A DNA stretch of 64,000 nucleotides from Rubrobacter sp. (lineage in GTDB: Bacteria; Actinomycetota; Rubrobacteria; Rubrobacterales; Rubrobacteraceae): NCBI GenBank assembly GCA_013697825.1, contig JACCWD010000113.1:1-64000 (forward strand). The letters are read 5' to 3'. Below are positions 38,645 to 41,548 of the stretch, piece after piece; position 1 is the first letter of the stretch, and every line of letters begins with the position of its first letter. The position numbers were made by a program, and so were the translations under genes. The notes under the pieces were generated by a model. The model was not told the origin of the DNA. It ran no database searches and saw only the letters and a list, made by a program, of their open reading frames with translations.

Positions 38645-41548
38645 TCAAGACGGGGCCGTGATCCCCCGCAAACCCTCCCGAAGCGTCTGAAGCTCCTCCC
38701 GGAACCTTTCCTTCGCGTCGAAGTCGGCGGCCTCCTTCATCTTTCGCTGGCGGCTGAGAATTCCGAGGCGAAGCCACGCCTCCCGCACCGAGGATTCCGT
38801 CGGATAAAGCCTCTCGCCCGCCGCCGCGAGCGAGCCGATGTGATCCATGAAAGGCCGCACCTCTTCGTCCGCGAGGAGCGAATCGAGGTCGTCTCCGGCG
38901 TGCCTCGCAAGGAGCGCGAAAAGGCGCGAATGCCCCTCCTTCCCGAAGTCATCGGGCATGAGGACGAAAGGCTCCGCGTGGCCGGGAACTTCGATGCCGC
39001 CTTCGATGAGGTCGGAGGTGAGATCCGGGCGGGCGAGTATGAGTGCGAGAACGTCATACCCGGCTTGATCGAGCGGCGTCCGCGCCTTCGACTCCCGCCG
39101 AGACTCCGACACGGAGGTCCGGCTCCTCACAGCCCCGAGCGCGTCCGGCGAAACCCCGAGAGCCTCGGTCGCCAAACGCCGCGCCTCCCGCTGGAAAACC
39201 GGGTCCTCGATCTGCCCAAGGAGATCCCGTATTTCCTGCAAAACCCGCGACCGCTCCGCCGCGTCCGCCCCCCGCACACCCTCGGCCTTCACCCGAAAAA
39301 TGTACGAGAGTGCCGGCTCCGCGCCACCGAGCATCTCCCGAAACTCCTCGGGCGAATGCTCCGAAAGCCAGTCCGCCGGATCGTCCGAAAGCCGCAAAAC
39401 CTGAAGGTCGAGCTTGAGTTCCGCCGCCGTCGCCGTCGCCCGCTCGACCGCCTTCTCCCCCGCGGCGTCCGGGTCGAAGAGGACATAAATCTTGTCCGCA
39501 TACCCACTCAAAGTCCGCAGATGAGCGGGCGACGTGGCCGTCCCGAGTGTCGCCACCGCATTCTTTATCCCACTCTGCCAGAGCATGAGTACGTCCGTAT
39601 ACCCCTCCACCACGAGCGCGGCCCGCTCCTTCCGAATACCCTCCATAACTTGCGGGAATCCGTAAAGAAGACTCCGCTTGTCGAACACCTCCGTCTCGGG
39701 GGAATTCAAATACTTCGGCTGATCGTCGCCCATCGCACGCCCCCCGAAACCCACGATCCTCCCCCGACGATCGGAGATCGGGAACGTGATCCGCCCCGCA
39801 AACCTCTCCCCCCCACCCCCCGACACAAGCCCCGCCGCCTCCAAAACCGACCGATCAAACCCGAGCCTCTCCGCCGCCTTCATGAAACCCCCGAAACCTC
39901 GCGGCATCGCATACCCCAGCCTAAATTCTTCTATAGTGGAATTATCGAATCCCCGCCCTTCGAGGTACTTCCGGGCGGCATCGGCTTGTTGAGATTGTGA
40001 TTTCAAGAACGTTTTATGGTAGTAAACGGCGGCGGCGGCGAGGGCTTTGTGGATGTTTCGGCGGCGTTCGCCGCGCTTCTTCGCGGCATCGGCGTCGGCG
40101 GAGGTTCCCTCGTATTCGAGTTCCATGTTCGAGCGTTCGGCGAGGTATAAGACGGAGTCGGTGAAGGAGAACGATTTGAGGTCGCCGACGAGTTTTATGG
40201 CGTCGCCGCCTTTTTGGCAATTATGGGTGATTCCCATCTTTGTCAGAAATGTGTGCGAACCGGTGGTGGCGATGTCAACGACCGTCGTGGGTTCTTCGTA
40301 GTCGATCTCGACCTCCCGAACCATAGACCAGAAATACATCGTGCCGGATATCGACGCGAAGAATCCTTTGAGCGATTCTTTGCAAAGCAAATGCACCGTA
40401 TAAAATCGTCGGTGTTTCGTGCCGTCTTTGCCGACGTATTCTGGCCAGGCGTTTATGGAGCAAACTTTCCGGGTTTGGACGCAAAGGGCGAATATCCCGT
40501 AAGCCAATCCCTCCGAAACCGAAGCGGCGCTCGTGACTTTTTGATACGTGCAGCCGTCTCCGACCATGTAGCCGTCGATCGTCGCTTCTTGGCATGGAGC
40601 CGTCCAATGCAACGCCTCGGTCGGAATCCGTTTGTTTTCGCACCCGCGTCCGAGCCAGCGTTCGAAGAGCGCGGCGAGATCCGTACTCGAACACATCACC
40701 TCGCAAATATTCTTCTCCGGCCGGACAATCGTAGTCGCGGGCCGCTCGAACTCCTCTTCGAGAATCCGCACGACCTTCGGAGCCAAAGTCTCGGTTTCGT
40801 GGACGCCGAAACTCCACTTCACGCCCCCCCTGTAAAGCGAGCCTTCCGCCAGCCAAACCCCGAACAGCCAAGCCGTGTCCTCGTTCACGTGCAACTCGGT
40901 GATCCGCTCATTCCTCGGACCCATCGTATACGCTTTGATAACGCCCTCGCCGGACAACGGCGAGTCGGCGCGCTCATGGTCGGGGATCACGGGATACAGC
41001 CAGAAATCCCCCGGTCGGATATTCGAGGCGCGATCCACGGTAATCTCGCCGTCGCCATTCAGAGCACGCAGCTTTCTCGAAAACCTGAGCGCATCCTCGC
41101 CTTTATGTCGAAAGTGGACGCGCGGATTCACCCGCATCGCCTCGCTCTTCTTGACGAAGACGCACCAGTGATCCGGAGTCAGACTAATGCCCTCCTTCGC
41201 CGCCCCCGTCTTTATCCTCACGGTCGATCCGGTTTTGACCAACTTCTCCGTTATGGACTCGCGCCGCCCGTCAAGCCCGATGACCTCATCGCCGACCTCC
41301 GCCTCCGCAATCCGGATAAAACCCCTCGAAGTCCATATGCGCTCGTTCTCCTCAAGGCACCCGAAGCAATAATAAAACCCCTTCTCCGCGTCCACGCTGA
41401 AAGACCCCGTCTTCTCCGAGTGGTCGGGGTAAGGGCAAAGCCCGACGAAGCGCGCCCCTTGCCGCCGGAGCGCGGTGAACTCCGAGGCGACCTCGACGAT
41501 GTCCGCCGACTCCCTCACGGCCTCGATGCTATTTTGAGAGATTCTCAA
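38645..41548 (-). CDS. dnaG: DNA primase DnaG, intein-containing precursor
   Basis: Zn-finger GLCPYPDHSEKTGSFSVDAEKGFYYCFG|C...GGDAIKLV split by intein; TOPRIM VVEGYTDVLMLWQSGIKNAVATLGTA, YVLFDPDAAGEKA; TTG start at 41548 with AAGGGGGAG SD. Confidence 0.95.
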   Translation of the reverse strand: MRISQNSIEAVRESADIVEVASEFTALRRQGARFVGLCPYPDHSEKTGSFSVDAEKGFYYCFGCLEENERIWTSRGFIRIAEAEVGDEVIGLDGRRESITEKLVKTGSTVRIKTGAAKEGISLTPDHWCVFVKKSEAMRVNPRVHFRHKGEDALRFSRKLRALNGDGEITVDRASNIRPGDFWLYPVIPDHERADSPLSGEGVIKAYTMGPRNERITELHVNEDTAWLFGVWLAEGSLYRGGVKWSFGVHETETLAPKVVRILEEEFERPATTIVRPEKNICEVMCSSTDLAALFERWLGRGCENKRIPTEALHWTAPCQEATIDGYMVGDGCTYQKVTSAASVSEGLAYGIFALCVQTRKVCSINAWPEYVGKDGTKHRRFYTVHLLCKESLKGFFASISGTMYFWSMVREVEIDYEEPTTVVDIATTGSHTFLTKMGITHNCQKGGDAIKLVGDLKSFSFTDSVLYLAERSNMELEYEGTSADADAAKKRGERRRNIHKALAAAAVYYHKTFLKSQSQQADAARKYLEGRGFDNSTIEEFRLGYAMPRGFGGFMKAAERLGFDRSVLEAAGLVSGGGGERFAGRITFPISDRRGRIVGFGGRAMGDDQPKYLNSPETEVFDKRSLLYGFPQVMEGIRKERAALVVEGYTDVLMLWQSGIKNAVATLGTATSPAHLRTLSGYADKIYVLFDPDAAGEKAVERATATAAELKLDLQVLRLSDDPADWLSEHSPEEFREMLGGAEPALSYIFRVKAEGVRGADAAERSRVLQEIRDLLGQIEDPVFQREARRLATEALGVSPDALGAVRSRTSVSESRRESKARTPLDQAGYDVLALILARPDLTSDLIEGGIEVPGHAEPFVLMPDDFGKEGHSRLFALLARHAGDDLDSLLADEEVRPFMDHIGSLAAAGERLYPTESSVREAWLRLGILSRQRKMKEAADFDAKERFREELQTLREGLRGITAPS
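40220..41359 (-). other. Intein (380 aa) with LAGLIDADG homing-endonuclease domain inside DnaG zinc finger
   Basis: Starts CLEENERIWTSRGFIRIAEAEVGDEVIGLDG (Hint block A), block B GISLTPDHWCVF, DOD motifs LFGVWLAEGS and IDGYMVGDGCT, block F TTVVDIATTGSHTFLT, ends GITHN|C. Confidence 0.95.

Follow-up and report, generated by a model that had tools for sequence, protein, structure and literature searches.

The window analysed here, i.e. the whole stretch of 64,000 nucleotides of Rubrobacter DNA, contains a dnaG gene whose open frame runs without interruption through a LAGLIDADG-type intein (Table 1). DnaG likely starts at codon 73 of the ORF, a TTG that is preceded by a purine-rich stretch. Counted from this codon the mature spliced DnaG comprises 587 aa, which corrects the 588 aa of the first-pass annotation. 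In the Pfam assignment of the ORF the zinc ribbon is split in two pieces, which are followed by DNAG_N and Toprim. The insertion point lies precisely after CFG, directly before the cysteine that serves as the last zinc ligand of DnaG. Motifs, length and junctions thus agree with the full-length intein that had been proposed for this position from the sequence.

Table 1. Features of the dnaG locus (window positions).
Feature	Position	Strand	Remarks
dnaG ORF, uninterrupted frame, 1039 aa	38645..41764	-	
Probable translated precursor, 967 aa	TTG start at 41548	-	
N-extein, DnaG start to ...FYYCFG	41360..41548	-	zinc-ligand positions Cys110, His115, Cys133 (ORF numbering)
Intein, 380 aa, Cys1 to Asn380	40220..41359	-	Cys136 to Asn515 of the dnaG ORF
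Splicing block B, TPDHWCVFV	41153..41179	-	Thr61 and His64
First LAGLIDADG-type motif, LFGVWLAEGS	40838..40867	-	intein residues 165-174; invariant catalytic-position acid Glu172
Second LAGLIDADG-type motif, IDGYMVGDGC	40550..40579	-	intein residues 261-270; invariant catalytic-position acid Asp268
C-terminal splicing blocks, VVDIATTGSHTFLTKMGITHN	40220..40282	-	His379 and Asn380
C-extein, CQKGGD...	38648..40219	-	Cys+1 is the last zinc-ligand position; followed by the domains DNAG_N and Toprim

Profile TIGR01391 matched the spliced DnaG in one stretch (372.8 bits, profile positions 1-408) and the unspliced protein in two (354.1 bits). Since the match becomes one stretch upon removal of the intein, and since relatives possess empty alleles, excision restores a conserved host protein and with it the CFGC zinc-binding site, as had been anticipated. 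The first residue of the C-extein, Cys+1, aligned to the cysteine that ends CFGC in 1D0Q, a structure of the DnaG zinc domain. This agrees with its earlier assignment as the last zinc ligand, a role that the cysteine is known to have in bacterial DnaG. The N-terminal ligand pair has the form CPYPDH (Cx4H; window 41420-41437) in most Rubrobacteraceae DnaG zinc ribbons, and a shorter Cx2H spacing is found in 1D0Q and in the genomes G003, G011 and G063.

A single dnaG copy was found in the source genome, a MAG that is 82% complete, and two more complete carriers of the intein (G028, G030) contain no duplicated dnaG. DnaG is essential in bacteria. With only one gene found for an essential protein, the precursor must splice.

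The residues of the insertion are those of a class 1 intein. The N-terminal cysteine of block A, Cys1, is invariant in all members. Block B follows the TxxH pattern with T61-P-D-H64, of which Thr and His are invariant (a phage homologue, see below, has T-A-E-H), and in every occupied allele the C-terminal His-Asn is followed by the nucleophile, HN/C (the slash marks the junction). Both dodecapeptides of the LAGLIDADG type carry an acidic residue, E172 and D268. Over the family alignment Cys1, Thr61, His64, Glu172, Lys243, Asp268, His379 and Asn380 are invariant, and the alignment thus contains no mutated catalytic residue for splicing or for the endonuclease.

Generic profiles recognized the window intein poorly. 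Alone it scored E = 0.05 with Pfam Intein_splicing and E = 0.1 with TIGR01445, below the curated family cut-offs (13.8 versus 35.8 bits for PF14890, 13.6 versus 24.5 bits for TIGR01445). Its relatives reached E = 6e-4 on the generic intein models, and LAGLIDADG_3 was matched by seven of eight members (best 1.8e-9), with the window member alone below threshold. Because these database matches were weak, we judged the intactness of the window intein from the motifs and the family alignment. These uphold the intact motifs of the first-pass annotation, although the generic scores do not add to them. A profile built from eight members detected solved intein structures, namely PI-SceI (3.9e-7), PI-PkoII (7e-6) and TliVMA (7e-5). 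PI-SceI and TliVMA were also the best Foldseek folds for a model of the intein (pLDDT 41, global TM about 0.2); the AlphaFold models, with pLDDT values of 30 and 41, are too low in confidence to support structural claims, and we consider the fold matches only as consistent with the profile result.

Distribution and probable exchange among Rubrobacteraceae

Nine further genome bins from the family proved to have a homologous intein at this DnaG position, 62-65% identical and each 380 aa long. One of these alleles lies on a short contig (G035:C53) that resembles genus g13, and the same bin also has an empty dnaG of the g3 type on contig C21. The occupied allele of this bin is probably a contamination, and discounting it leaves eight other bins. 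The public MAG contig of the uncultured Rubrobacteraceae bacterium AVDCRST_MAG14 (L053) carries the intein as well; it is identical to that of G027, such that the two probably represent one genome. In all remaining relatives with readable sequence at the site, the CFGC motif is intact and empty. Among them is G001, the only genome of the same genus, with 94% extein identity. An alignment of related DnaG homologs, which had been suggested as a check, thus revealed occupied alleles in some genomes and empty ones in others; in several lineages the two kinds of allele occur in sister genomes. Among 398 genomes of the phylum, no primase outside the family contained the junction HNCxxGGD. Five matches to this pattern outside the family were chance matches in short or unrelated frames.

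Some dnaG genes were irregular near this region. In two genomes of the same genus (G002:C2/C20 and G014:C30/C12; L056-L059) contig ends truncate dnaG at a near-identical codon (about 183-217 of the query), owing to either an assembly break or a rearrangement. The dnaG of G063 (L055) is without a stretch directly after CFGCSKGGDAI when compared to relatives, owing to either an in-frame deletion or an assembly error.

The incompleteness of the MAG (82%) and the poor performance of the intein alone on generic models could point to an assembly artefact, a pseudogene or a non-functional insertion. We reject these readings, whose probability is close to nil: the same insertion with the same length and catalytic residues occurs in independent assemblies, i.e. 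the nine other bins and L053, the frame is open without a stop, and dN/dS is low. The latter was 0.10-0.16 over the whole intein in the six pairs with unsaturated dS, and about equal in the Hint and the endonuclease regions, apart from the short C-terminal segment, where the values were noisy. Purifying selection on the endonuclease implies its recent use. Together with the invariant E172 and D268, the low dN/dS is in agreement with the earlier suggestion that the endonuclease may be active.

Several observations concern the mobility of the element. In six of eight pairs dS was higher for the intein than for the extein (e.g. 1.29 versus 0.51 for G026/G028), with G013/G035c and the near-saturated G000/G027 as exceptions and with dS values that are high or saturated in several pairs. 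A higher dS of the intein is as expected if it moved between lineages. Four of six lineages with an occupied and an empty sister showed extra divergence between the two alleles within 21 nt of the site, compared to the remainder of the region (Fisher-combined P = 0.003 for all six; P = 0.81 for nine control pairs). For the lineage of the window alone (G000/G001) the effect was weak (6/42 versus 19/270, P = 0.10). Because the empty G001 allele seems to hold the derived state at the differing residues near the site, gain and loss are not polarisable in this pair; the differences may stem from co-conversion when the intein was gained, from replacement when it was lost, or from an escape of the allele from cleavage. 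At position +2, Gln was present in 10 of 10 occupied alleles versus 14 of 27 empty ones (P = 0.007, with relatedness ignored).

An old intein of the family that was inherited vertically and is now only being lost, with an endonuclease that no longer drives spread, would account for the constant length of 380 aa and for the broad agreement between the intein and primase trees at the level of clades. We consider this unlikely. It leaves unexplained the purifying selection on the endonuclease region, which equals that on the splicing region, as well as the elevated intein dS in most pairs and the association with Gln+2, and precise losses would require a mechanism of their own. On balance, the data suggest that the intein has long resided in the family and is still being exchanged.

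We therefore favour, with a probability of roughly 0.88, a class 1 intein that is functional and mobile, contains a homing endonuclease of the LAGLIDADG type, resides in the only DnaG gene found and is kept by homing. As far as sequence comparison reaches, the exact site, the intact splicing and endonuclease residues, the purifying selection, the patchy distribution and the phage homologue are established. In the proposed mechanism, Cys1 would attack after translation, the zinc-ligand cysteine Cys+1 would then take over the N-extein, and cyclisation of Asn380 would release normal DnaG. The endonuclease, either excised or as part of the precursor, would cut intein-less dnaG alleles at the CFG/C codons, and repair would copy the intein into the cut allele. 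Location at an indispensable DnaG residue would make imprecise loss of the element hard. Splicing is taken to be constitutive under normal conditions.

The possible zinc site of the precursor

In the precursor the potential ligands are arranged as C110-x4-H115-x17-C133-F-G-C136, where C136 is Cys1 of the intein and directly follows CFG. Pfam Zn_ribbon_DnaG aligns with the N-terminal half through this Cys1. According to the first-pass annotation, the zinc site cannot form in the precursor before splicing. Because Cys1 of the intein occupies the position of the fourth ligand, such that four ligand-type residues follow each other in native order, this claim is unsupported as it was worded. Conversely, it is plausible that zinc at the precursor site or a Cys133-Cys1 disulfide could block the Cys1 nucleophile.

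Splicing might be conditional: Cys1 would complete a four-ligand Cys/His/Cys/Cys site, and zinc or a disulfide (Cys133-Cys1 or Cys1-Cys+1) would delay primase maturation until the metal or redox state changes. Apart from the native order of the residues and the profile match through Cys1, precedents from other inteins point in this direction. In the mycobacterial DnaB intein DnaBi1, splicing is reversibly halted by zinc bound to the initiating cysteine (PMC7360933), and Cys1-Cys+1 disulfides form in a SufB intein (PMC8529194) and in the Pab PolII intein (PMC8175363). Nevertheless, such a switch appears rather improbable. The cysteine ligands are conserved for the own need of DnaG and hence provide no evidence for it, without its second half (QKGGDAIKLV) the ribbon may be unable to hold zinc tightly, and many close relatives live without the intein. 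Similarly improbable is its broader form, in which Cys1 mimics the fourth zinc ligand, a lock on splicing set by zinc or a CxxC disulfide gates active primase, and the metal-gated site is common to phages and hosts. If true, replication initiation would respond directly to the metal or redox state.

Also with constitutive splicing as the preferred reading, the CFG-Cys1 junction offers an unusually clean test of zinc control over splicing by a host motif, since the splicing nucleophile and a metal ligand occupy one position.

Phage homologue and relation to known inteins

The viral contig IMGVR_UViG_3300035698_004868 encodes a 1239-aa protein composed of a DnaG-type primase and a DnaB-like helicase region (L066:3389-7108; L085). 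Its zinc finger reads HCFG/C...HN/CGVGFD and is interrupted by an intein of 376 aa (L066:3647-4774) that is 31-33% identical to the Rubrobacteraceae intein and has the endonuclease motif EGSLYRGG in common with it. As judged by the alignments, homologous inteins are present at the same residue of the same fold in bacteria and in one phage, represented by a single contig. The insertion point CFG/C is the same, whereas the phage has Gly at +2 instead of the Gln of occupied bacterial alleles, and its host gene, unlike bacterial dnaG, fuses the primase to a DnaB-like helicase region. The N-terminal ligand pair of the phage primase is Cx4H, as in Rubrobacteraceae. Two pattern scans of viral sequences returned the same contig again and otherwise chance matches. 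Matches from tblastn in named phages were weak, fell into genes annotated as methylase, 'tRNA synthetase' and ribonucleotide reductase, and were dismissed; with the phage intein itself as query, tblastn gave no matches in named phages. A primase zinc-finger site that is defined to the residue, that a phage has in common with bacteria, and that is occupied in some genomes and empty in their sisters makes a good natural system in which to follow homing.

Further inteins occur in the source genome in DNA polymerase I, DnaB (two), GyrB and UvrD/PcrA (contigs C201, C80, C194 and C74; L001, L002/L005, L003, L004). If DnaG is counted, this genome therefore has at least five proteins of replication and repair that must splice. 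Elsewhere in the same family, L019 (G019:C212:804-1136) is a related LAGLIDADG-bearing, intein-like insert in a non-primase ORF. Two SufB-like proteins with inteins (L020 in G046, with two in its frame, and L022 in G037; host identity judged by eye) surfaced as weak endonuclease-region matches.

DnaG is listed among the intein-containing bacterial proteins in Table 1 of a 2018 review, which gives neither site nor sequence (PMC5874633); the host protein is the same, and identity with the present allele is not checkable from that entry. A paper describing this DnaG site was not found in the open-access literature, which misses most subscription journals. The earlier impression of an uncommon insertion position thus holds for the site within that literature, but not for DnaG as an intein host. 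The phage intein at the homologous zinc-finger cysteine is new here.

A close likeness exists to the VMA inteins. Yeast VMA1 intein PI-SceI and the archaeal TliVMA and PhoVMA likewise consist of a Hint domain with an inserted two-motif LAGLIDADG endonuclease, and PI-SceI and the VMA inteins gave the best profile and fold matches of the DnaG intein. They differ in their host, which is a V-type ATPase rather than a primase, and identity is 12-16% in the fold alignments. Mycobacterial DnaB inteins, DnaBi1, also reside in the replisome and have documented zinc and redox control (PMC7360933, PMC6195587). In contrast to the DnaG intein, DnaBi1 uses a class 3 mechanism via the internal Cys118 and occupies another host protein and site. 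Compared with these systems we rate the present element as a known kind of intein in a known host, and as a new member with a testable junction.
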